Of a stretch of DNA of 11,479 bases, positions 1 through 10,550 are shown piece after piece. The DNA is from Gemmatimonas phototrophica (lineage in GTDB: Bacteria; Gemmatimonadota; Gemmatimonadetes; Longimicrobiales; Gaopeijiaceae). The notes under the pieces were generated by a model. It saw only the letters and a list, made by a program, of their open reading frames with translations. It was not told the origin of the DNA and ran no database searches. A program made the translations under genes and the position numbers. Position 1 is the stretch's first letter. Each line of letters starts with the position of its first letter. Location of the stretch: NCBI GenBank assembly GCA_945876015.1, contig CAMCNM010000035.1, forward strand, positions 1-11,479. The letters are read 5' to 3'.

Positions 1-428
1 TGCACCCGGTACGTGAGGAGGGTCCGGTCGGCCCCGAGTGCCTTCAGCTCCACCTGAACGCGCATCTCACGAAGCGGGCCCCGTCGGTAGCGGCGCACCA
101 GGCCGAACCGGCTCGGAGCCACCCACTCGAACGGGGTCTCCTCCCATTCGATGGGCACTCCCGCCACGCGCATCTTGAGCACGTGGCGACCGGGTCCCAT
201 CGCGACGTCCGGCTCCCGCGCGTCGGTCACGGTGGGGAGGCCGGTGTCGCGGTTGAAGCGGTCCGTATCGGCGACGAGCGGCCAGAGGGCGGCGGGCGTC
301 GCCTCCAGCTCCCACTCCCAGATGTAGCTCCGGGGACGAAGGTCATGGGTAGAGGTTGGCCGCGCGGACCCCAGGGGGACAAGTGGAGGCCGGAACGGGC
401 CGCGTCCGGCGGGGGTCCCACCGGACAT
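1..428 (-). CDS. SRPBCC-fold protein, 5' part only (possibly a DUF5939/adenylate-cyclase-type N-terminal domain)
   Basis: The reading frame is open from an ATG at 428 to the left edge, giving 142 codons with no stop, so the 3' end lies outside the window. After about 33 low-complexity residues comes SYIWEWELEATPAALWPLV, then DTDRFNRDTGLP, EWEETPFEWVAPSRFG and RRYRRGPLREM. This order, with W-L-V, D-T-x-R-F-N and a late W-x-x-P, is typical of SRPBCC (START-like) ligand-pocket domains. From memory it most resembles the version at the front of some bacterial adenylate cyclases (DUF5939), but no cyclase domain is visible. The start is the only ATG/GTG/TTG in frame between 428 and the conserved region. 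A GAGAG lies 8 bases upstream. That ATG overlaps the divergent sufE start. The SRPBCC fold is fairly sure; any function is unknown. Confidence 0.6.
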   Translation of the reverse strand, partial: MSGGTPAGRGPFRPPLVPLGSARPTSTHDLRPRSYIWEWELEATPAALWPLVADTDRFNRDTGLPTVTDAREPDVAMGPGRHVLKMRVAGVPIEWEETPFEWVAPSRFGLVRRYRRGPLREMRVQVELKALGADRTLLTYRV

Positions 429-855
429 GGATGCAGCTCTCGAGAAGAAGGTCGAGCGTTTTCGCGCGCTCCCGCGCGAGATGCGCTTGCAGGCTCTGCT
501 CGCGCACGCCAAGCGCTTTCCGGAGCTGCCCGACGATCTGCGCGAAGCGCGAGACCTCGGCATGGGGCGCGTCGAGGAGTGCCAGACTGCGCTCTACCTG
601 TGGGTCGGGATCGAGAACGGCAGAGTCCGGATCCACGCGGACGCTCCGCGCGAGGCTCCCACGGTCCGTGGCTTCGTGGGATTCCTGGTCGAAGCGCTCG
701 ATGGCGCCGATCCCGCGGCGATCGAGGATGTGCCGGAGGATCTCATGTTCAAGATGGGTCTCGACGAAGTCCTCGGACCCATGCGCAGCCGCGGGCTCGG
801 CACCGTCATCCGCCGCATTCGCCGCGACGTGGCGCGAGCGTCCGAAGGAGCCTAG
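427..855 (+). CDS. sufE: SufE-family sulfur acceptor for Fe-S cluster assembly
   Basis: This is a 142-residue protein, the usual SufE length. SufE takes persulfide sulfur from the cysteine desulfurase SufS on a single cysteine and passes it to the SufBCD scaffold in the cytosol. The family pattern is visible: a basic amphipathic N-terminus (EKKVERFRALPREMRLQALL), FPELPDDLRE, then the acceptor cysteine Cys52 in GRVEECQTALYLWV. It continues with a strand rich in small and acidic residues (VRIHADAP), TVRGFVGFLVEALDG, and LGPMRSRGLGTVI near the end. Typical members have G-C at the acceptor site; here it is E-C. Cys52 is the only cysteine. No sufS or sufBCD lies in the window, so partners must be elsewhere. 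There is no good ribosome-binding site (a G-run lies 11-15 bases upstream), so initiation may be weak or leaderless. Identification is confident at family level. Confidence 0.85.
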   Translation: MDAALEKKVERFRALPREMRLQALLAHAKRFPELPDDLREARDLGMGRVEECQTALYLWVGIENGRVRIHADAPREAPTVRGFVGFLVEALDGADPAAIEDVPEDLMFKMGLDEVLGPMRSRGLGTVIRRIRRDVARASEGA

Positions 856-1265
856 ACGCCGAGCGCAGCTCTCACTTCCTGTGGAATGCGAGCGGGCTTC
901 CGGTCCGTCCCGATCCAGACCGCCGTCACGCTGGCGACGACCGACGCTTCGTCGGGTGAGCCGACCGCCGATGCGACCTGATGGAAGACCATCGACGCTC
1001 GGGTCATGTCGCCGACCCGCGTACGCACCACGAGCTCGTCGCCCTGCCGCGCTTCCTTGAGGTATTCCACCTGGAGCGTGACCACGTACACTCCCCAGCC
1101 CCGCGCCTGGATCTCGGCCGCTGGAAAGCCGCCCTGCTCGAACACGTCGAATCGGGCCTGCTCGAACCAGTTGAGGAAGACGGTATGATTGACGTGCGCG
1201 AAGCCGTCGAGCTCGTAGCTGCGCGCCCGGAAGCGGCTCTCGAAGACGTGCGGCGTGGGTGCCAT
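852..1265 (-). CDS. Hotdog-fold acyl-CoA thioesterase (YbgC/FadM, 4-hydroxybenzoyl-CoA thioesterase family)
   Basis: This 137-residue cytosolic enzyme would hydrolyse an acyl-CoA thioester to free acid plus CoA. The single hotdog domain shows RSYELDGFAHVNHTVFLNWFEQAR at residues 15-38 in three parts: the Asp20 position of the family's catalytic acid, HVNH turning into the central helix, and F-E-x-A-R. Strand motifs VVTLQVEYLKEARQGDELVVRTRV and a closing VTAVWIG follow. Substrate cannot be read from sequence; relatives use short-chain, aromatic or long-chain acyl-CoAs. I chose the ATG at 1265 because homology begins just after it. A TTG at 1358 would add 31 unlike residues and run into modA. 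Its TAG stop lies in the same CTAG as the convergent sufE stop. A GGGGAG abuts the ATG with no spacing, so translation signals are poor. Confidence 0.85.
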   Translation of the reverse strand: MAPTPHVFESRFRARSYELDGFAHVNHTVFLNWFEQARFDVFEQGGFPAAEIQARGWGVYVVTLQVEYLKEARQGDELVVRTRVGDMTRASMVFHQVASAVGSPDEASVVASVTAVWIGTDRKPARIPQEVRAALGV

Positions 1266-1328
1266 CTCCCCAAATTGCGACCGGATGCTCGGTTGGTCAC
1301 CCCCCGTCCCGGCAGCGCCCTCCCTTCT
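1266..1328. promoter_or_regulatory. Divergent intergenic region between thioesterase and modAB
   Basis: These 63 bases separate two outward-facing start codons and must carry, or overlap, promoters for both sides. I see no clear -35/-10 pair, no convincing ModE-type operator and no molybdenum-cofactor riboswitch fold, but such elements can be degenerate. The pyrimidine-rich stretch just before the modA TTG lacks a Shine-Dalgarno sequence. Confidence 0.3.
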
Positions 1329-2834
1329 TTGATTCCACGAGCTAGCCGGCGAGCCCAATTCTCCGCCCTGATCGGTTGCGCCGCGCTGTTCGCGCCGGTC
1401 GCGGCCAGGGGGCAGGCCGCGGCGCCCGCACAGGCGCCGATCCTGGTTCTGGCGGCGGCCAGCCTGTCCGACGCTTTGCCCGCGGTCGCCAGGCTCTGGG
1501 AGGCGCGCGGAGGGGCACAGGTCGAGTTCAGCTTCGCGGCGACGTCGCGCCTGGCGCCGCTCACGCTGCAGGGCAATGCGGACCTGTTCATCTCGGCCGA
1601 TCGGGAGTGGATGGACTGGGTCGTGAAAGGCGGGGGCGCCAAGGCTGAGGACATCGTCCCGCTGCTCGGCAATTCGCTCGTGGTGGCCGTTCCCGCTGGC
1701 ACGGAGTCGCCGCCCCGCACGCTCGCGGAGGTCGTGGCGCTGCCGCGGCTCGCGCTCGCGGGCGAGGCCGTCCCGGCGGGCAGGTATGCGCGCGCGGCGC
1801 TCGAGGCCGCCGGTCTCTGGGACGAAGTGGAGGGGCGCGTCGTGCGTGGCGAAAGCGTGCGGAGCGCGCTCGAGTGGGTCGCGCGCGGAGAGGCCGCCGC
1901 GGGGATCGTCTACCGAACCGACATGCCTGTCACGCCGGGCGTGCGGCTCGCCTTCGCGATCCCGCCGGAGGTATCGCCCGCGATCGTCTATCCGGGCGTG
2001 GTGCTCGCCAGCGCGCCGAACGCGGCGGCGGCGGGCGAATTCCTCGCTTTTCTCCGCACGGCGGCCGCGCAGGAGGTGTTCATCGCGGCGGGCTTCGAGC
2101 CGCCGATCTCGCGCCCGCCCGCCGCGCCGCCGCAGGCCGGACCGGTCGAGAATCCTGGATCGGCCATCCTGTTGTCTCTCGTGGTCGGGCTGGCGGCGAC
2201 GCTGCTCGGCTTGGTTCCTTCGGTGCTGCTTGGCCGCCTGCTCGCGCGCCGCGAGTTCGCCGGGAAGGCGCTGGTGTCAACGCTGATCCTGATGCCCCTC
2301 GTGCTGCCTCCGGTCGTGACCGGATTCCTGCTTCTCACGCTATTCGGGACGCGCGGCGTGTTCGGGCCCGCCTTGGGCGCGTTCGGGATCACGGTTCCGT
2401 TCACGCTCATCGCGCCCGTGGTGGCGGCGGTCGTCGTGGGCCTCCCGTTCTACGTCCTCGCGGCGCGCGGAGCCTTCGAGGCTGTGGACGCGCGCCTCGA
2501 GGAAGTCTCCTGGACTCTCGGGGTGCGGCCGCGGAGCACCTTCTTCCGGGTCGTGCTGCCGCTCGCGGTGCCCGGGATCGCGGCGGGAGCGGTGCTCGCG
2601 TTCGCTCGCGCGCTCGGCGAGTTCGGTGCGACCGTGGTGCTCGCCGGGAACGTCGAAGGGCGCACGCGCACGATTCCGCTCGCGGTCTACTCGCTGCTCG
2701 AGTCCCCCGGTGGCAGCGGCGGCGCATGGGTGCTCGCGGGCGTCAGCGTGCTGCTCTCCTTGCTCGCGCTCGCCGGCTTCGAGGGTCTCTCCCGCTGGCA
2801 GAAGAAGAGGCTCGAGGAATGGTCGGGACGGTGA
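1329..2834 (+). CDS. modAB: ModA-ModB fusion: molybdate-binding protein joined to ABC permease
   Basis: This is one 501-residue polypeptide from a TTG start. Residues 1-28 form a signal peptide (basic RASRR, hydrophobic FSALIGCAALFAPVAA, then ARG-Q). Residues 37-260 are a ModA-type receptor: AAASLSDAL (41-50), FSFAATSRLA (68-76), QGNADLFISAD, AVPAGRYARAAL and GIVYRTD (192-198) are the segments that cradle the oxyanion. A proline/alanine linker (261-275) leads into ModB with five hydrophobic spans near 278-302, 312-340, 355-378, 405-430 and 466-484. The cytoplasmic EAA-type loop (EEVSWTLGVRPRSTFFRVVLP) and ALGEFGATV are typical of ModB. Outside N-terminus plus five spans puts the EAA loop and basic C-terminus inside, as needed for contact with ModC. 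ModA and ModB are normally separate genes. Tungstate is an alternative substrate. The exact start is uncertain, since other TTGs lie upstream in frame. Confidence 0.88.
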   Translation: MIPRASRRAQFSALIGCAALFAPVAARGQAAAPAQAPILVLAAASLSDALPAVARLWEARGGAQVEFSFAATSRLAPLTLQGNADLFISADREWMDWVVKGGGAKAEDIVPLLGNSLVVAVPAGTESPPRTLAEVVALPRLALAGEAVPAGRYARAALEAAGLWDEVEGRVVRGESVRSALEWVARGEAAAGIVYRTDMPVTPGVRLAFAIPPEVSPAIVYPGVVLASAPNAAAAGEFLAFLRTAAAQEVFIAAGFEPPISRPPAAPPQAGPVENPGSAILLSLVVGLAATLLGLVPSVLLGRLLARREFAGKALVSTLILMPLVLPPVVTGFLLLTLFGTRGVFGPALGAFGITVPFTLIAPVVAAVVVGLPFYVLAARGAFEAVDARLEEVSWTLGVRPRSTFFRVVLPLAVPGIAAGAVLAFARALGEFGATVVLAGNVEGRTRTIPLAVYSLLESPGGSGGAWVLAGVSVLLSLLALAGFEGLSRWQKKRLEEWSGR

Positions 2835-3484
2835 GCGAGGTGGCCACGCCGACCGTACGGTCGCTCGACGTTTCGGTGCGGCTCTCGATCGGGACGCTGG
2901 GTCTCGGCGTCGAGCTGCGGACCGACCGTCGCGCGGTGGCGATCGTGGGACCATCGGGCGCGGGGAAGAGCACCCTGCTTCGTGTCCTGGCCGGGGTCGA
3001 GCGCCGCGCGACCGGAAAGGTGGAGATGTCTGGCCGGACCTGGCTTGACACCAAACGCGGTGTCTTCCTCGAGCCTTGGGACCGCCGGGTCGGCTGGGTA
3101 CCGCAGAACGATCTGCTCTTCCCGCACATGAGCGTCCGCGAGAACATGGCGTTCGCAGGCGCGAGCGCGTCGGACGTCGAGGAAACAGCCGAACTGCTCG
3201 CGGTGCGGCCGCTGCTCGAGCGGCGTCCCCGGAACCTGTCGGGCGGAGAGCGCCAGCGGGTCGCGCTGGGCCGTGCGCTCCTGGCGCGGCCCGAGTTGCT
3301 GCTGCTCGACGAGCCCTTCTCGGCGCTCGATCGACCGCTCCGGCTGGATCTGGTGCAGCGGGTTCACGCGCTGGCCGAGCGGGCGGGCATCATGCTGGTG
3401 CTGGTCAGCCACGACGATGGGGACACCGCGGCGATGGCGGAGGAGCGCTGGCTCCTCGTCGAGGGTCAGCTCAACCGGCTATGA
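2819..3484 (+). CDS. modC: Molybdate ABC transporter ATPase, short form
   Basis: This 221-residue protein is the nucleotide-binding subunit that drives import through ModAB at the inner membrane. Visible motifs in order: Walker A GPSGAGKST (44-52), Q-loop in WVPQNDLLFPHMSVREN (Gln96), signature LSGGERQRV (140-148), Walker B LLLLDEP (160-166), D-loop SALD and switch His198 in LVSHDD. It stops soon after the ATPase core, whereas typical ModC is about 350 residues with a C-terminal molybdate-binding Mop/TOBE domain, so feedback sensing through that domain appears absent. The start is the ATG at 2819, with AGAGG 8 bases upstream and 16 bases of overlap with modAB. An in-frame GTG at 2831 forms a GTGA with the modAB stop and is a fair alternative. 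Either way the two are translationally coupled. Assignment as ModC rather than a sulfate ATPase rests on the modAB context. Confidence 0.88.
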   Translation: MVGTVSEVATPTVRSLDVSVRLSIGTLGLGVELRTDRRAVAIVGPSGAGKSTLLRVLAGVERRATGKVEMSGRTWLDTKRGVFLEPWDRRVGWVPQNDLLFPHMSVRENMAFAGASASDVEETAELLAVRPLLERRPRNLSGGERQRVALGRALLARPELLLLDEPFSALDRPLRLDLVQRVHALAERAGIMLVLVSHDDGDTAAMAEERWLLVEGQLNRL

Positions 3485-4539: not shown

Positions 4540-5289
4540 CTAGACCGCGGCCTGCCCTGCAACCCCCCCGAAGCGCCGGTCGCGACCCCTGAACTCGATC
4601 AGAGCGTCGGCCAGCCGCGCTGGGCTGAAGTCCGGCCACATGCATTCGGTGAAGAGCAGCTCGGCGTAGGCCGCCTCCCAGAGCAGGAAGTCCGAGAGCC
4701 GCTGCTCGCCGCCCGTACGAATCAGAAGATCGACGTCACGCACCGGCTCTCCTTCGTGCACCGCCTCTCCCAGCAGTCGCGAGAATACGTCACTGTCGAT
4801 GCGCGCCTCGCCGTCCAGGATCGCGGGCCGCGCGGCCGCGCGCCGGGCGGCTGCCACGATCGCCCCTCGAGACGAGTAGTCGATCGCCAGGCGGAGACGG
4901 AGCACACGTCCGTCGCGCGTCGTGCGCTCGGCGCGCTCGATCGCGCTCAACAGCGGACCGGACAGGCGATCACGCCGGCCGATCACGGTGAGACGTACAC
5001 CTCGCTCGGCCAGCTCCTCGACTTCGCTGCGCAGATGTCGTCGGAAGAGCGCCATCAGCGCGGTGACCTCGGTCGGAGGGCGCTGCCAGTTGTCCGACGA
5101 GAACGCGTAGAGCGTCAGTGTGCCGATCCCGAGATCCGGCGCCGCCTCGACGATGCGTCGCACCACCCGCGTCCCCTCGCGATGCCCGAAGACGCGCGGC
5201 CGTCCGTGGGCTTCGGCCCAGCGGCCGTTCCCGTCCATGATGATCCCGACGTGGATCTCGGCCGGCGGTCGTAGAGTGCTCTGTACCAT
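4540..5289 (-). CDS. uppS: Undecaprenyl (di-trans,poly-cis) diphosphate synthase
   Basis: This 249-residue cytosolic cis-prenyltransferase adds isopentenyl units to farnesyl diphosphate, giving the C55 carrier for peptidoglycan and O-antigen. Family motifs are all present: [17 protein letters not shown] with the catalytic Asp at residue 19, [42 protein letters not shown], and the isopentenyl-binding [21 protein letters not shown] followed by WPDFS. Length is close to the roughly 250 residues of E. coli UppS. Bacterial uppS usually sits with cdsA, dxr and frr. Here it closes a minus-strand series after a winged-helix regulator, with 37 bases between. No clear ribosome-binding site precedes the ATG at 5289. 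A strong terminator follows. Confidence 0.95.
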
Positions 5290-5302
5290 GAAGTATGATC
5301 CG

Positions 5303-5323
5303 AAAAAAAGAGAGAGGGATCCC
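5303..5323 (-). terminator. Possible weak terminator between regulator and uppS
   Basis: On the minus strand, just past the regulator stop, a short GAGGG...CCCTC pairing (12-base loop) that includes the palindrome GGGATCCC (5316-5323) is followed by CTCTCT and a run of seven T (A7 at 5303-5309 on the plus strand). The stem is short, so it could be an attenuator or a purine/pyrimidine tract without function. Confidence 0.3.
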
Positions 5324-5326
5324 GGC

Positions 5327-5704
5327 TCAGCCCTCGCGGGTGGACCGGATGATCGCTTCCATGTGGTCGAGGTAGGCCTGCAGCGAGCGGCGGCCGACCG
5401 CGGTGAGCGTGTACTCCGTCTTTGGAACGCGTCCCTCGAACGATTTCTTACAAGCGATGTAGCCGGCCTCCTCGAGCTTCCGCGCGTGCGCGCTCAGGTT
5501 GCCGTCGGTCGTGTTGAGCAGGCTTTTCAGATCGGTGAACATGACCGATCCGTTCACGGCGAGCGCGCTCACGATCCCCAACCGAACGCGCTCGTGGATC
5601 AGTCGGTCGAGCTCGAGCGCGGCCTCGCCGGAACCGGCGACCGAGCGCATCCTCTCGTTCATTTCCTTCGGAGCCCGTTTCCGGGCAGGACCACGATCAG
5701 CCAC
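5327..5704 (-). CDS. Winged-helix transcriptional regulator (HTH_34 / MarR-ArsR-like)
   Basis: From a GTG at 5704 the protein has 125 residues. The pattern [39 protein letters not shown] (recognition helix), [17 protein letters not shown] and [20 protein letters not shown] is the winged-helix family PF13601, a single-domain dimeric DNA-binding protein. No metal- or ligand-binding motif is evident. The GTG is chosen because GAGGAGG lies 4 bases before it; the longer TTG start at 5719 lacks such a signal. The start overlaps the stop of the membrane-protein gene by 8 bases, so the two are coupled. Pairing of this regulator type with a small membrane protein is common, and it may repress its own operon or the membrane partner. 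No operator was identified. Confidence 0.85.
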
Positions 5705-6323
5705 CGTGCCTCCTCGCAATCAGAAAACCGGACACCAGGTGAAGTCCGCCGAACCCCGCCGCCATGAACGCGTCGCCCCAGGATGCGGGGGCGAGCACCG
5801 CAGCCGTGCCCATGACGATGAACCCGATTCCCGTGAGGGGAATGATGCGGACCGAGTGGGAGCCGCCGGTCACGACCGCGGTACCGTAGAGCAGCAGCCA
5901 CATCCCCGGGAGCAGCGCCGTCTGGCCGTGCATGTACAACGCCACGGTCAGGATGCCTCCCACCGCGATCGGGGGGGAGAAGCTGAAAGCGAACTTCCGA
6001 CCGGGCCCCGACAGGAGCGGCATGCCCGCGGCGCGTGACTTCAGCGTCATCCCGACCAGAGCCATCACGAGCGAGATCGCGGCCACGGTGAGCCAGGTGG
6101 CCATCCAGCCCTCGGGCGTCTGCTGGCCGCGGGCGATCCACGACGCCCCCAGGGCCACGATCCCCATCGCGAAGCCGGCCCAGCCGGACACGGCCGTGAA
6201 CGACGCCGAGCGCTCCATCGTCTCGCGGATGAAGCGGAGGTTGTCCATTGCCCGGTCGTGCAGGGCGACGGGCTCCGGAGCGGGGCAGCGTAGGGGTCGG
6301 GCGGGAATCATCGAATCAACCAT
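5697..6323 (-). CDS. Multi-pass membrane protein of unknown function
   Basis: The protein has up to 208 residues and about six hydrophobic spans: AVSGWAGFAMGIVALGASWI, WLTVAAISLVMALVGMTL, FSPPIAVGGILTVALYMHG, MWLLLYGTAVVTGG, PLTGIGFIVMGTAAVLAP and FMAAGFGGLHLVSGFLIA. Before the first span is MDNLRFIRETMERSASFTAV, which I recall as a recurring front end of proteins encoded beside winged-helix regulators. It ends in basic RRHGG, probably cytoplasmic. No enzymatic motif is visible, so function is unknown. The start is uncertain: ATGs occur at 6323, 6311 and 6248, and a promoter-like sequence overlapping the first would favour 6311 or 6248. The gene is coupled to the downstream regulator by an 8-base overlap. 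Confidence 0.75.
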   Translation of the reverse strand: MVDSMIPARPLRCPAPEPVALHDRAMDNLRFIRETMERSASFTAVSGWAGFAMGIVALGASWIARGQQTPEGWMATWLTVAAISLVMALVGMTLKSRAAGMPLLSGPGRKFAFSFSPPIAVGGILTVALYMHGQTALLPGMWLLLYGTAVVTGGSHSVRIIPLTGIGFIVMGTAAVLAPASWGDAFMAAGFGGLHLVSGFLIARRHGG

Positions 6324-6372: not shown

Positions 6373-7380
6373 TCAGGGCACCACGACATCCAGCGCCTTC
6401 TCGAGCACTTCTACGTCAACCGCGTGGCCGGCGCTTCCGTAGACGTCCCCGTCCACCTCGAAGCGCGGCAGCGGCCCGCTTTCCGGAAACCGCACGCTGA
6501 ACCAGCGGTCCGAGATGATCTGCACCTCGGGCTCACCCACGTGCCGGCCGCGCTCCGCCCGATTGAAGAGCGCCGCGCGGCGGAGAGGCCCCGCGTCCCC
6601 GATCAAGCAGGCGTGCAAAAGGCCGTCATCGACGGTGGCGCCGGGTGCGATGGGGAAGCCGCCGCCGAAGTACCGCCCGTTCGAGATCGTCAGGATCAGC
6701 TGCCGGCCCGCTCGCGTCCCCAGCTGCCCCGTGGCCAGGCTCAGATCGACGCCCGGAAAACGGAAGAGCTGCTGGAGCGCGGTGACTTTGTAGAGGACCG
6801 CTCCCTTGAGGAAGCGCGCACCGGCCGCCGCGTCGATCACCGCGATGTCGAAGCCGAAGCCGACCAGATTGAGGAAGTGCCGGGTCCTGAACGCGCTCCG
6901 ATCCCCGCGTTTCGTGTCCGGAGCCGACGGCGTGACCACGCGCCCCACGTCCACCCTTCGCGTCCGGCCGCCGGCGAGCGCGCGTACCGCCGCCTCGGGG
7001 CTGTCGTACGAGAGGCCGAGGTTCCTTCCGAAGTCGTTTCCGGTCCCGGAGGGGAGCACGGCGAGCCGCGCGCCACCCGGCCAGCCGATCACCTGATCGG
7101 CGACCTGGCTCCAGGTGCCGTCGCCCCCAACCGCGACGATCGTTTCGGCACCGGCCTCGAGTGCCGCGCGGGCGAGCGGACCCTCGTCACCGCTCGCCCT
7201 GGTGATCGAGTGGCCGAAAGTGCCCAGATGTTTGGTGAGAAGCTCGAGATAGGCGGCAATGCGCTGCCCGCCACGGCCACGGCCGGATGCCGGGTTGAAG
7301 ATCACATGAACCCGGCCGGGGCCCGCGGGGCTCAGATGCGCTCCATCTCCTCGAAGGTCTGGAGTCCGCTCTTGAGCCAT
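6373..7380 (-). CDS. Diacylglycerol kinase-like lipid kinase (YegS/BmrU/DgkB family)
   Basis: This 335-residue cytosolic or membrane-associated enzyme would phosphorylate a lipid hydroxyl with ATP, making phosphatidic acid if the substrate is diacylglycerol. The catalytic domain begins with RVHVIFNPASGRGRGGQR (23-40). The nucleotide-binding AVGGDGTWSQVADQVIG (83-99) is followed by LAVLPSGTGNDFGRNLGL (106-123). The C-terminal beta-sandwich includes LNLVGFGFD, SNGRYFGGGFPIAPGATVDDG and PRFEVDGDVYG near the end. The usual GGDGT-hNE is GGDGT-WSQ here, a modest deviation at the Glu position. The ATG at 7380 overlaps the upstream gene by 49 bases, which is long. An in-frame GTG at 7305 would remove the overlap but leave almost nothing before IFNPASG. 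True lipid substrate is unknown; sphingolipid or sugar-lipid kinases share this fold. Confidence 0.88.
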   Translation of the reverse strand: MAQERTPDLRGDGAHLSPAGPGRVHVIFNPASGRGRGGQRIAAYLELLTKHLGTFGHSITRASGDEGPLARAALEAGAETIVAVGGDGTWSQVADQVIGWPGGARLAVLPSGTGNDFGRNLGLSYDSPEAAVRALAGGRTRRVDVGRVVTPSAPDTKRGDRSAFRTRHFLNLVGFGFDIAVIDAAAGARFLKGAVLYKVTALQQLFRFPGVDLSLATGQLGTRAGRQLILTISNGRYFGGGFPIAPGATVDDGLLHACLIGDAGPLRRAALFNRAERGRHVGEPEVQIISDRWFSVRFPESGPLPRFEVDGDVYGSAGHAVDVEVLEKALDVVVP

Positions 7381-7994
7381 TGCTCGCGAAAGGCGTATCC
7401 CGACACATCGGGAAGCGTGAGCCCCGCGGTCATCGGATGCTCGTGGAGGGTGAGCGTGCCCTTCTCCTCCTCGTGTTCCGCGTGGGGGCCTTCCATGTAG
7501 ATGTTTACCTTGTAGTGGTCATTGCCGTCGATCATGAACGAGTTGTACAGGTCGCGCACCGGAGCGAAGCGGTGGCTGGTGACCGTCATCTCGAGAATCG
7601 GCTTGTCCTGCTCGGCGACGGTCACGGTCATGACGTCGTCCTTCGGCGCGAGCCCGATGTCCACGGCCTTCATGTAGTGCGGCAGATGCCAGCGCGCGAT
7701 GGCGTGCTCACGCGACGAGTCGGTGGTCGTGCCCACCATGAACGGGAAGAACGCGGCTTTGGGCAGCTGATGGCCCGGCTCGACCCTCGGCGGCACGATG
7801 ATCGCGAGCACGATCTCGTTGTACTTGCCCACCATGCTCTCGGTGAACTCGAACGCCGTCACCGCGAGAATGCTCCGCGTGTGCTGCACCTCCAACGGCT
7901 GGAGATGCGCCGGGAGAAGGCCGCGCGCGTCCGAGGTCGGCATCTCGAAAAACGCCGCGCACGCCTGGGCAAAACCGTACCGAGTGTATTCCAT
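7332..7994 (-). CDS. Acetoacetate decarboxylase-like fold protein
   Basis: This 220-residue soluble protein shows the pattern I associate with the acetoacetate decarboxylase (ADC) superfamily: LLPAHLQPLEVQHTRSILAV, FEFTESMVGKYNEIVLAIIV, FFPFMVGTTTDSSREHA and HYMKAVDIGL, then a strand-rich second half. Lys109 in YMKAVDI may correspond to the Schiff-base lysine region of true decarboxylases, but I could not align it rigorously, so activity is unproven. Many relatives are non-decarboxylating lipocalin-like or lactonase-type proteins. It is the first gene of the leftward cluster, and its 3' end overlaps the lipid kinase start by 49 bases, suggesting shared expression and perhaps a role in acyl or keto-acid metabolism. 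AAGG seven bases before the ATG is an acceptable ribosome-binding site. Fold assignment is moderate; function unknown. Confidence 0.55.
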   Translation of the reverse strand: MEYTRYGFAQACAAFFEMPTSDARGLLPAHLQPLEVQHTRSILAVTAFEFTESMVGKYNEIVLAIIVPPRVEPGHQLPKAAFFPFMVGTTTDSSREHAIARWHLPHYMKAVDIGLAPKDDVMTVTVAEQDKPILEMTVTSHRFAPVRDLYNSFMIDGNDHYKVNIYMEGPHAEHEEEKGTLTLHEHPMTAGLTLPDVSGYAFREQWLKSGLQTFEEMERI

Positions 7995-8092: not shown

Positions 8093-8824
8093 GTGATCGG
8101 AATCGCGCTCGTCCTTGGCGATCCGATTCAGCGCACCCTCGTGGTCGGGCTGGCGCGTCTATTTCCGTCCCGCCGCGAAGCGATCCTGACCGCGTGGATC
8201 CGTCTGTACGCTCGCATGATCTTCGCGACCACGCGCACGATCGGTGGCGCCCGCATCCAGGATCCGCCGTCCATCCCTGGGGGCCCCGGCGTGCTCGTCC
8301 TGGGGAACCACCAGTCCGTGCTCGACATCCCGCTGGTGGTCAACGCGCTGACGGTGCACCCCCGCATCGTCACCCGCGACCGCTATGCCCGCGGGAAGCC
8401 GCTAATCTCGCACATGATCCGCCTGTATCAATACCCGGTGGTCCACCCCTCTGCAACGGTCAAGCGGGGGGATCTGACGAGGATCGCGGAGGAGGCGGCT
8501 AGGAGCCCCGTCCCCATCGCGCTCTATCCCGAGGGGACCCGGACCAAGGACGGTGGCCTCGGAGCCTGGCGGGAGGCGGGCCTCCGAGCGATCCTCAGCG
8601 CGAGGCAGTGGCAGGTCTACCTCCTGGTCGCCGACGGCTTCTGGCAGGCGGCCAAGCTCCCGGACTTCGTGAGGACCGTGCACACCATCGACAGCCGTTC
8701 GGCCATGGTGGGTCCGTTTCCTTCACCGGAGCCGGGGACAGACCCCGCGGCCTTCATCGCGGAGATGCGCACGCGCATGGAGGCGGCGCTCACCGGCCTC
8801 AGGTCCCCGCCATCGGGAACGTGA
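8093..8824 (+). CDS. plsC: 1-acyl-sn-glycerol-3-phosphate acyltransferase (PlsC/LPLAT family)
   Basis: This membrane-bound acyltransferase would convert lysophosphatidic acid to phosphatidic acid. Counting from the GTG at 8093 it has 243 residues. The catalytic HX4D motif is GNHQSVLDIP (His73, Asp78), and the glycerol-phosphate-binding motif is YPEGTRTKDGG (145-155). An arginine-rich stretch and LISHMIRLYQYPVVHP match the intervening family blocks. The frame stays open upstream to 8039 and encodes LKLRGYLTLGVIGIAL, which completes an N-terminal membrane segment, but no ATG/GTG/TTG occurs there. A CTG at 8063 preceded by GGAG at 6-base spacing is a possible real start. It ends in a GTGA overlap with the next gene, indicating coupling with CDP-diacylglycerol synthesis. 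Confidence 0.92.
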   Translation: MIGIALVLGDPIQRTLVVGLARLFPSRREAILTAWIRLYARMIFATTRTIGGARIQDPPSIPGGPGVLVLGNHQSVLDIPLVVNALTVHPRIVTRDRYARGKPLISHMIRLYQYPVVHPSATVKRGDLTRIAEEAARSPVPIALYPEGTRTKDGGLGAWREAGLRAILSARQWQVYLLVADGFWQAAKLPDFVRTVHTIDSRSAMVGPFPSPEPGTDPAAFIAEMRTRMEAALTGLRSPPSGT

Positions 8825-9783
8825 CGGCTCCCGGAGCCGACCCCGACGCCCAGCGGCTGGCCCGGTCGCTGGTCGAGATCGCGGGTAGGGATCAAGTCCT
8901 CGCGGTCCTTCTGTTCGGCTCCCGCCTGGTGCAGGCTTCGCCCGATCGCTTCAGCGCCTACGACCTGGTCGTGGTGGTGGAGAGCTACCGCTCGTTCTAC
9001 GACGCGCTGGAGCGGGCTGGATTCGCACGCCGCTCACCCGCGATCCAGTCGGCGCTCAACCGCGTGCTCGCGCCCAACGTGATCGCGTTCGCGCCCGATG
9101 GGTGGAGCGGCGGACCGGTGGCGAAGATCATGGTGATGGAGCCGGCCGCGATGGAGCGCGCGCTGTCCAAGGACTCGCGCGACCATTTCGTGAAGGGAAG
9201 GCTGGTGCAGCGCGTGGCCGTGCTCCACGCGCGAGATCACGCGGCTTCGGCGTGGATCGACCGACTGATCGCGCGCGCGCGGGGAGACATCCTGAGCTGG
9301 GCGGGCTCGTTCCTGGACGAGCCGTTCACGCCCGCCGCGGCTGCGCTCCGCATGCTTCAGGTCTCGTACGGGGGTGAGGTTCGCCCCGAGGCGGCCGACC
9401 GCGTGCTCGATGTGTTCGAGACGCAGCGGTCGTTTCTGACCGAGGAGCTGACGCGGGTGCTGGCCGAAGCCGCGGAGGCCGGCGAGTTGACGAGGGAAGG
9501 CGAAGGCTATCGTTTCGCTCGTCCGCGGGGCGGCAGCGATCGGAGGGAAGCGCGCTCGTACTTCCTGCGCTCGAAGGTGAGAGCTACCGCGCGTTGGCTC
9601 AAGCACGTGATCACGTTCGACAACTGGCTCGATTACATCGCGCGCAAGGTCGAGCGCAGGACGGGAAAGAAAGTCGAGATCACAACCTGGGAGCGTCGCT
9701 TGCCCTATCTCCTGCTCTGGCCGAAGGTCGTGCGCGTGCTGCGCGAGCGTCCCGCGCGGCTCGACCCGGGGGCGCGGCGATGA
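8821..9783 (+). CDS. Tam41-like phosphatidate cytidylyltransferase (CDP-diacylglycerol synthase), nucleotidyltransferase fold
   Basis: The protein has 320 residues from a GTG overlapping the plsC stop (GTGA). Tam41/TAMM41 is a peripheral mitochondrial enzyme that makes CDP-diacylglycerol from CTP and phosphatidic acid. Compared from memory with human TAMM41, the blocks fall in the same order. LLFGSRLVQ (30-38) matches AYGSGVYRQ. YDLVVVVES (47-55) matches LDFVFTVDD and keeps the metal-binding Asp48. AKIMVME matches IKYGVIS, and FVKGRLVQRVAVL (123-135) matches IAGRLQKPVKI. FLDEPFTPAAAALRMLQVSYGGEVR matches the PESFSEEDL...LSYSGDFR block. A winged-helix-like part and a basic C-terminal region (KHVITFDNWLDYIARKVERR) follow; the latter could bind membrane. 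It is unlike the integral-membrane CdsA. Neighbours making its substrate and using its product support the role. Activity is inferred. Confidence 0.78.
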   Translation: MTAPGADPDAQRLARSLVEIAGRDQVLAVLLFGSRLVQASPDRFSAYDLVVVVESYRSFYDALERAGFARRSPAIQSALNRVLAPNVIAFAPDGWSGGPVAKIMVMEPAAMERALSKDSRDHFVKGRLVQRVAVLHARDHAASAWIDRLIARARGDILSWAGSFLDEPFTPAAAALRMLQVSYGGEVRPEAADRVLDVFETQRSFLTEELTRVLAEAAEAGELTREGEGYRFARPRGGSDRREARSYFLRSKVRATARWLKHVITFDNWLDYIARKVERRTGKKVEITTWERRLPYLLLWPKVVRVLRERPARLDPGARR

Positions 9784-10550
9784 GGCCCGAGATCGCGTCG
9801 CTTCTCGGCATCGTCGTCGCCGCCGTGCTCTCGATGCCGGTCTACCACTTCGGCCGCGCGCGGCGCGGCGTGGACAAGCTCGAGATCGCGGACCGCGGCA
9901 GCTTCATCCTCGGTCCGTTCCTGCGCGACTGGTTCTACTGGTTCATCCACCCCGTCGTCTGGCTCAGTCTCGCTCTCGGACTCTCGCCGCTGTTCTACAA
10001 CCTGCTCGGCGTGGTCTTCGGTGCCCTGGCGGGATGGGCGTTCGCCACGGGTCACCACGCGTTGGGGGGCTGGGGTGTGCTCCTGGGCGGAGTGGCCGAC
10101 ATCCTGGACGGGCGCATCGCGCGCGCGCAGGGCGTGGCCTCGCAGCGGGGCGCGTTCCTGGACTCGAGCCTGGACCGCTTCGCCGAGCTCGGGGCGTTCG
10201 TCGGGCTCGCCGTGCGTTTCGGCGGATCGCCGTGGGGCCTCGCATGGGTCACCGCCGGAGTCGGCGGATCGCTCCTCGTGAGCTATACGAGGGCTCGCGG
10301 CGAGAGCCTCGGTGTGGTCTGCAAGCTCGGGGTCATGCAGCGTGCCGAGCGGCTCATCCTGCTCGGCTTCGCGGGCATCCTTGATCCTGCCGTTTCGGCC
10401 CGGTGGCCCGACCTTTCCTGGTCCGATGCCGGGGGGGCCAGCCTTCTCCTGCCAGTGCTGGTAGTGATTGCGGTCGGGACCATGGGGACCGCGATCTTCC
10501 GGACCGTCTGGATCGCGCAGCGTCTGCCGGCCGTCGATCCCAGGCGGTGA
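9780..10550 (+). CDS. CDP-alcohol phosphatidyltransferase (phospholipid synthase)
   Basis: This 256-residue integral inner-membrane enzyme transfers a phosphatidyl group from CDP-diacylglycerol to an alcohol acceptor. The diagnostic motif is complete: D107-xx-D110-G111-xx-A114-R115-x8-G124-xxx-D128-xxx-D132 (ADILDGRIAR and GAFLDSSLDR), giving the two-metal site. Around it are about six hydrophobic segments, including SLLGIVVAAVLSM, HPVVWLSLALGLSPLFYNLLG, LGAFVGLAV, GLAWVTAGVGGSLLVSY and LLLPVLVVIAVGTMG. It ends in basic residues. The ATG overlaps the previous stop as ATGA, so it is the last gene of a coupled trio. The acceptor (glycerol-3-phosphate, inositol-phosphate, serine or other) cannot be read confidently. 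The N-terminal extension before the motif, RGVDKLEIADRGSFILGPFL, is longer than in PgsA. Confidence 0.9.
   Translation: MRPEIASLLGIVVAAVLSMPVYHFGRARRGVDKLEIADRGSFILGPFLRDWFYWFIHPVVWLSLALGLSPLFYNLLGVVFGALAGWAFATGHHALGGWGVLLGGVADILDGRIARAQGVASQRGAFLDSSLDRFAELGAFVGLAVRFGGSPWGLAWVTAGVGGSLLVSYTRARGESLGVVCKLGVMQRAERLILLGFAGILDPAVSARWPDLSWSDAGGASLLLPVLVVIAVGTMGTAIFRTVWIAQRLPAVDPRR

Follow-up and report, generated by a model that had tools for sequence, protein, structure and literature searches.

The stretch analysed here (the window; 11,479 nucleotides), contig 35 of a 276-contig Gemmatimonas phototrophica genome (1.98 Mb, 73% complete), contains a trio of plus-strand open reading frames for a PlsC-type acyltransferase, a predicted Tam41-family cytidylyltransferase and a cytidine diphosphate (CDP)-alcohol phosphotransferase resembling phosphatidylinositol-phosphate (PIP) synthases (PIPS). 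Just upstream, on the opposite strand, lie an acetoacetate-decarboxylase-like (ADC-like) gene and a lipid kinase gene. The Tam41-like gene is likely part of a dedicated pathway linked to sphingolipids. Gene order, the Tam41 fold, a single-Asp active site, the PIPS-like transferase, a tie to a gene like that for serine palmitoyltransferase (SPT) and the presence of CdsA lead us to propose a dedicated sphingolipid head-group route via CDP-ceramide; we infer all its substrates, CDP-ceramide in particular, and the proposal as a whole is evenly balanced between being right and wrong.

8093-8824, plus strand: PlsC-type acyltransferase, 243 residues, GTG start (PF01553, HX4D, EGTR)
8821-9783, plus strand: predicted Tam41-family cytidine triphosphate (CTP):lipid-phosphate cytidylyltransferase, 320 residues, GTG start (nucleotidyltransferase core plus helical C-terminal part)
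9780-10550, plus strand: PIP-synthase-like CDP-alcohol phosphotransferase (PF01066, PIPS relatives)
6373-7380, minus strand: diacylglycerol kinase (DAGK)/YegS-type lipid kinase, same module (PF00781 1.4e-26, PF19279 4.3e-22)
7332-7994, minus strand: ADC-like protein (PF06314 8e-7, just below the cut-off)

The products of the gene trio

The three genes are coupled, as the initial annotation had claimed, both junctions being four-base overlaps legible in the sequence (GTGA at 8821-8824, ATGA at 9780-9783); the gene order it proposed and the complete catalytic motifs of the two outer products, i.e. HX4D plus EGTR and the CDP-alcohol motif, can likewise be read directly. The motif blocks it listed for the middle protein are also present, save that the last is VSYGGEVR and not of the LSYxGxxR type. 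The middle protein is not the product of a chance open reading frame, since relatives with 37-69% identity are encoded at 59 genome loci, at 57 of which the transferase gene follows (of the other two, L013 ends at a contig edge).

Single-sequence searches with the middle protein gave no match to PF09139 (Tam41) in Pfam at E ≤ 1 and no Tam41 match in NCBIfam or the PDB; PF04439 (Adenyl_transf) was matched at 4.3e-4, below its cut-off. In an alignment of 52 rows (the window protein and 51 of 119 other homologues), PF09139 was matched by 15 members and PF04439 by 17 (E ≤ 0.01; best 2.3e-6 and 8.6e-6, respectively), and in a second alignment of 17 rows (twelve loci, the window and four homologues) PF09139 was matched by six (E ≤ 0.01, best 3.1e-8). 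The profile of the 17-row alignment matched the Tam41 structure 6ig2 at E 0.0089, that of the 52-row alignment at E 0.82. Against six genomes behind the loci PF09139 gave one match, below the cut-off, and it was not matched by any of five proteobacterial plasmid relatives or by three further ones. The structure comparison settles the assignment where the single-sequence Pfam search did not, in that the nucleotidyltransferase core and the second domain both fit the Tam41 fold. The Tam41/TAMM41 assignment made earlier thus holds on structural grounds, with relatives, and not the window protein alone, matching PF09139, and the middle protein is almost certainly a Tam41-family nucleotidyltransferase. 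A nucleotidyltransferase of another kind, e.g. an adenylyltransferase of the aminoglycoside type acting on an unrelated acceptor, is most improbable.

According to the accessible part of PMC11646218, Tam41 keeps one of three nucleotidyltransferase acids and holds CTP by positively charged residues. The family studied here likewise has a single-Asp active site and basic residues for CTP, with D48, a Val or Ile at +2, and K102 each conserved in 52/52 rows. The last stretch of the C-terminal part is common to the proteobacterial relatives.

The transferase matches PF01066 (CDP-alcohol phosphatidyltransferase, E 3.3e-10) and carries the motif DILDGRIAR...GAFLDSSLD, and the pattern D-x2-DG-x2-AR-x8-G-x3-D-x3-D is invariant across 20 aligned rows (window plus 19 of 57 loci). 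Its best solved relatives are PIPS (5d92, 8.6e-10; 6h53, 3.6e-9; also 6wm5), with 3.1e-24 in a profile search; relative to 6h53 it has an N-terminal extension of ~40 residues. We name it PIPS-like only, because its NCBIfam scores are below the curated cut-offs both for archaetidylinositol-phosphate synthase (119 bits, cut-off 180) and for PIPS (81, cut-off 170). The inositol-phosphate residues of MtPIPS, as given in the accessible part of PMC4634129, are S132, K135, R155 and R195; SYTRAR and QRAER of the transferase align with SYIKAR and ERPER of MtPIPS, such that the positions of S132, K135 (as Arg) and R155 fit, the alignments being weak around R195.

The acyltransferase matches PF01553 (E 7.3e-12) and has both PlsC motifs, as NHQSVLD (HX4D) and PEGTR; among 15 aligned proteins (window plus 14 of 53 loci) EGHR replaces EGTR at L045, L051, L053 and L058. 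Its acceptor may be lysophosphatidate or, we infer, a sphingoid phosphate.

Conserved neighbourhood and co-occurring genes

Across the 59 loci the transferase gene is present at 57, the ADC-like gene at 54, the acyltransferase gene at 53 (L001 having only a fragment; a further fragment lies at the contig edge of L018) and the kinase gene at 49 (one a contig-end piece). The locus labels are Gemmatimonadota or its subgroups in 51 cases (we take Longimicrobiales and BD2-11 to belong to this phylum), Acidobacteria or Vicinamibacteria in four, and Gammaproteobacteria in four. At the four Acidobacteria/Vicinamibacteria loci the kinase, acyltransferase, Tam41-like and transferase genes are co-directional, with an ADC-like gene ahead in three. 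No acyltransferase was found at L014, L015, L030, L033, L035 or, on the Acidobacteria side, L069, which makes the Tam41-like/transferase pair the core. The idea of the trio as a functional unit stands as regards its order, but not its extent, the unit being larger and including the lipid kinase gene, the ADC-like gene and, genome-wide, an SPT-like gene. This larger unit puts in doubt the phosphatidate substrate that the initial annotation had assumed.

In a survey of 200 genomes of the phylum, 33 matched the Tam41-like protein, of which two (G094, G124), matching only in part and over a short length, were excluded from the carriers; the Tam41-like and transferase genes occur in the same 31. 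CdsA (PF01148), for which the initial annotation had proposed to look, was present in 35/35 genomes examined (the 31 carriers and four non-carriers). The Tam41-like enzyme thus does not stand in for CdsA, and phosphatidate would have no need of a second synthase. That the enzyme is dedicated to one particular lipid, as had been suggested, is borne out by its sharing the same genomes with its transferase while CdsA is present throughout.

An SPT-like gene (subfamily call at E ≤ 1e-180; next-best match 4.9e-113) was found in 29/31 carriers versus 6/169 non-carriers (Fisher p ~1e-26, without correction for kinship). Within genus g2, three genomes have both genes, one the SPT-like gene alone, and 11 neither. 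The genomes with an SPT-like but no Tam41-like gene are G027, G132, G139, G154, G169 and G188; in four of these six (G027, G139, G169 and G188) the kinase has its gene next to the SPT-like one, which suggests that it goes with the sphingoid product.

The SPT-like gene is inside the cluster at 19 of the 59 loci (15 of the 19 were aligned). At the acidobacterial locus L045 the gene for an alpha-oxoamine synthase, the best NCBIfam model of which is SPT, lies ahead of the ADC-like gene, with a short-chain dehydrogenase gene ahead of that; at L017 the closest solved enzyme to the SPT-like protein is 3a2b, annotated as SPT (305 bits, the next enzyme class scoring 255). In the window's genome the SPT-like gene lies on contig C203, at its edge, and overlaps a second ADC-like gene (L083 2688-3359, minus strand), the first being that beside the kinase gene. 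Of the 14 regions with an ADC-like gene, 12 have it next to the SPT-like gene. Among the unlabelled families around the SPT-like gene, none recurs in more than 4/16 regions, and those examined, which include an ABC permease, a PaaX-like regulator and a cyclophilin, suggest no lipid role. The ADC-like protein had no PDB match at E ≤ 0.01, and the lack of an invariant Lys among 16 aligned proteins (window plus 15 of 54 loci) makes a classical Schiff-base decarboxylase doubtful; two other alignments, A5 and A8, comprise the window plus 15 of 49 loci, and three proteins, respectively.

In family f1, myo-inositol-phosphate synthase (MIPS) is encoded in 27/28 carriers, the exception being the incomplete G000; counted over all families, the other 30 trio genomes all have it. 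A second PIPS-like gene was found in 6/28 f1 carriers versus 19/24 non-carriers and, wherever both places are listed (23 of 25 cases), is adjacent to MIPS; the f1 genomes with neither the trio nor this gene are G053, G064 and G152 (all without MIPS), and G132 and G154 (89-90% complete, MIPS present). The f1 pattern fits inositol phosphate as the acceptor. MIPS presence was rejected as a discriminator, being found in 183/200 genomes.

Matches to the middle protein also occur on plasmids (16/72,556 records), those of Roseomonas adding a third phylum. On one plasmid each of Roseomonas mucosa, R. haemaphysalidis, R. marmotae and R. gilardii, transferase, kinase and Tam41-like genes stand in a row, followed in the first three species, on the other strand, by genes for an SPT-family enzyme and an acyl carrier protein. 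The SPT at L109 and L112 passes the curated cut-off of 500 (612.7 and 625.5 bits), and L114 has the SPT-family and acyl carrier protein genes. The Roseomonas family (L112 and 47 of 119 other homologues) aligns with the window family over 276 columns, including most of the C-terminal stretch (hhalign 99.9%, E 7e-35). The Roseomonas transferase is only distantly PIPS-like (1.3e-6), so its head group may differ. A Diaphorobacter plasmid carries transferase and Tam41-like genes, with a kinase gene and an annotated acyltransferase gene nearby, and plasmids of Pseudomonas sp. JS425 and Qipengyuania carry kinase-Tam41-like pairs.

Two further features of these plasmid stretches were observed. Roseomonas genes annotated as dATP pyrophosphohydrolase (L109 621-1778, L112 383-1543, L114 333-1484) match the GNAT family of the SPT clusters described below (1.3e-93 to 8.9e-90); judging by these matches the annotation is probably wrong, and the products may be ceramide N-acyltransferases. 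LptF/LptG-family permease genes lie near the Tam41-like gene in 6/7 stretches (L109, L110, L111, L112, L113 and L114) and possibly encode an exporter of the finished lipid.

Elsewhere in the window, a SufE-type Fe-S protein is encoded at 427-852 (plus strand; PF02657, 5.6e-23), and a single open reading frame at 981-2831 (plus strand) fuses a periplasmic binding domain (PF13531) with an ABC permease (PF00528), presumably as a ModA-ModB-like molybdate transporter, with an ATPase gene next (2843-3481). The minus-strand region 4540-6323 contains an undecaprenyl-diphosphate-synthase-like gene, a winged-helix regulator gene and a gene for a 208-residue protein lacking a Pfam match; these three are found together near the kinase gene at 17/59 loci.

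The lipid substrate and alternative routes

In the route that we propose, a dedicated pathway of sphingolipid type would have its head-group half encoded by the trio. An SPT-type alpha-oxoamine synthase, the gene for which lies on a different contig of the window's genome, beside the second ADC-like gene, would start the sphingoid base, and the DAGK-type kinase would phosphorylate this base or ceramide. Sphinganine-1-phosphate, a compound similar to lysophosphatidate, may be acylated by the PlsC-like enzyme in systems that have one. The Tam41-like enzyme would then move cytidine monophosphate (CMP) from CTP onto the phosphorylated lipid, so that CDP-ceramide is formed rather than CDP-diacylglycerol (CDP-DAG), and the PIP-synthase-like enzyme would put ceramide-phosphate on inositol-1-phosphate. 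The known head groups of sphingolipids are either transferred, from another lipid or from a sugar donor, or arise by phosphorylation.

The company of the Tam41-like gene, i.e. an SPT-like gene, a DAGK-family kinase gene and CdsA elsewhere, favours a sphingolipid phosphate, and thus CDP-ceramide, over phosphatidate. The acyltransferase, the closeness of the kinase to DgkB, and the absence of an SPT-like gene from two carriers speak for a glycerolipid, so that a sphingolipid phosphate has roughly an equal chance of being, or not being, the CMP acceptor.

The observations that weigh against CDP-ceramide are various. The PlsC-like gene fits plain conversion of lysophosphatidate to phosphatidate, and the cluster kinase scores higher against DgkB/YegS (114 and ~94 bits) than against sphingosine kinase (44 bits). 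The carriers G075 (one contig) and G127 lack an SPT-like gene at E ≤ 1e-90 and have no PlsC-like gene in the stretch read, with the Tam41-like and transferase genes present, and at L014 the Tam41-like gene has no transferase gene in the following 1.1 kb. There is no kinase gene next to the SPT-like gene of G154, and the contig ends there in G132. The SPT-like proteins score below the curated SPT cut-off of 640 (371 for L104, Gemmatimonadota; 364 for L045, Acidobacteriota), SPT being still the best family, and no SPT is annotated in the Diaphorobacter, Pseudomonas and Qipengyuania plasmid stretches read. A literature search, which most subscription papers lay outside, found no precedent for CDP-ceramide. 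On neighbouring subjects the search yielded nothing joining Gemmatimonadetes with SPT and ceramide or Caulobacter with a bacterial ceramide synthase, and nothing on-topic for phosphatidylinositol in Gemmatimonadota.

The phylum also apparently has a second, AUR1-like route to inositol ceramide. Other Gemmatimonadota families carry a different SPT, with genes for a GNAT protein, an NAD-epimerase-type dehydrogenase and a PAP2_3 protein at L101 (6918-11108), and with GNAT and PAP2_3 genes at L102 (5594-9739) and L103 (6093-10370); the L103 GNAT copy, lacking its own Pfam match, is 55% identical to that of L101. We take PAP2_3 to be the family of AUR1-type synthases. The Tam41-like profile had no match in these three regions. 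A GNAT gene (E ≤ 1e-40) was found in only 19/28 f1 trio genomes and was rejected as an obligatory partner; N-acylation in the rest may thus proceed otherwise, possibly by the PlsC-like enzyme.

The most direct alternative is that PlsC makes phosphatidate, the Tam41-like enzyme CDP-DAG, and the PIPS-like enzyme phosphatidylinositol phosphate, the trio being a second, dedicated CDP-DAG source for phosphatidylinositol. The gene order PlsC-Tam41-PIPS reads exactly as this sequence of reactions, the characterised Tam41s, including one from bacteria, make CDP-DAG (accessible part of PMC11646218), MIPS is present in the trio genomes as described, and the scarcity of the second PIPS-like gene in f1 carriers looks as if the trio replaces it. 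However, CdsA is present in every genome examined, and this alternative leaves unexplained both the tie to the SPT-like gene and the Roseomonas cluster, where SPT and kinase genes occur with no annotated PlsC in the stretches read; we consider it rather unlikely. A local phosphatidylinositol cycle, in which an AUR1/BT1522-like synthase moves phosphoinositol from phosphatidylinositol to ceramide, freeing diacylglycerol that the kinase re-phosphorylates, with the Tam41-like and PIPS-like enzymes rebuilding phosphatidylinositol beside the sphingolipid machinery, would account together for the kinase, Tam41 activity, PIPS and SPT. PAP2_3 is found in 10/31 trio genomes at E ≤ 1e-12 and in 18/31 at E ≤ 1e-3, close to a GNAT gene in G190 and G118, so that some could make inositol ceramide from phosphatidylinositol, a further point against CDP-ceramide. 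The cycle is nevertheless quite improbable: PAP2_3, the only PAP2 family searched for, gave no match at E ≤ 1e-3 in 13/31 trio genomes, and in four of the six SPT-like genomes that lack a Tam41-like gene the kinase gene is still found beside the SPT-like one.

The CDP-ceramide route may be put in a more general form, for which we claim slightly less than even confidence. In this, a liponucleotide route would run parallel to that of glycerolipids, a Tam41-family enzyme turning sphinganine-1-phosphate/ceramide-1-phosphate into CDP-ceramide and a CDP-alcohol transferase adding a head group that would be inositol phosphate in Gemmatimonadota and Acidobacteriota and a different one in Pseudomonadota; the kinase and Tam41-like enzyme would form an activation module, and the transferase an exchangeable head-group module. 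If so, CDP-activated ceramide would represent a second head-group logic, a mirror of that of CDP-DAG, and would explain why a Tam41-type enzyme is kept beside CdsA in some bacteria. The proposal assigns a testable function to hypothetical proteins in Gemmatimonadota, Acidobacteriota and Pseudomonadota, and might help to place the bacterial relatives of mitochondrial Tam41 in context.

Comparison with known Tam41 enzymes and sphingolipid systems

A Tam41-type enzyme in bacteria, as suggested by the initial annotation, is not new: a bacterial Tam41 making CDP-DAG is already known (Kimura 2022, as cited in the accessible part of PMC11646218) and its structure has been solved (7ecd, Firmicutes); 6ig2 and 6ig4 are further solved Tam41 structures. 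What is new is the genomic setting. The window protein has 12 to 14% identity to Tam41/TAMM41, the mitochondrial CDP-DAG synthase (PF09139), and differs from it in belonging to a gene set with a PIPS-like transferase, a kinase and an SPT-like enzyme; unlike 7ecd, its family has a conserved C-terminal stretch beyond the 7ecd-matching part. The transferase shares with the actinobacterial PIP synthases (5d92, 6h53, 6wm5) the CDP-alcohol motif and the inositol-phosphate region (SY-x-[KR]-AR and R-x-ER), but differs in its N-terminal extension and in having a partner cytidylyltransferase in its operon.

With regard to sphingolipids, Caulobacter CpgABC (CCNA_01217-01219) make ceramide-phosphoglycerate, the lipid kinase CpgB being a ceramide kinase that makes ceramide-1-phosphate (accessible part of PMC10331486). 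The Roseomonas transferase-kinase-Tam41-like row, with SPT and acyl carrier protein genes nearby in three of the four species examined, resembles CpgABC, and we predict that the Tam41-like protein is the counterpart of CpgA or CpgC; the Caulobacter head group is phosphoglycerate, whereas that of the window system is probably inositol phosphate. The Bacteroides cluster BT_1522-1526, in which ceramide receives phosphoinositol via the AUR1-like BT_1522, does not have the terms CdsA or Tam41 attached to it in the accessible main text of PMC9246714; as there described, it likewise ties inositol-1-phosphate, PIPS and sphingolipids together.

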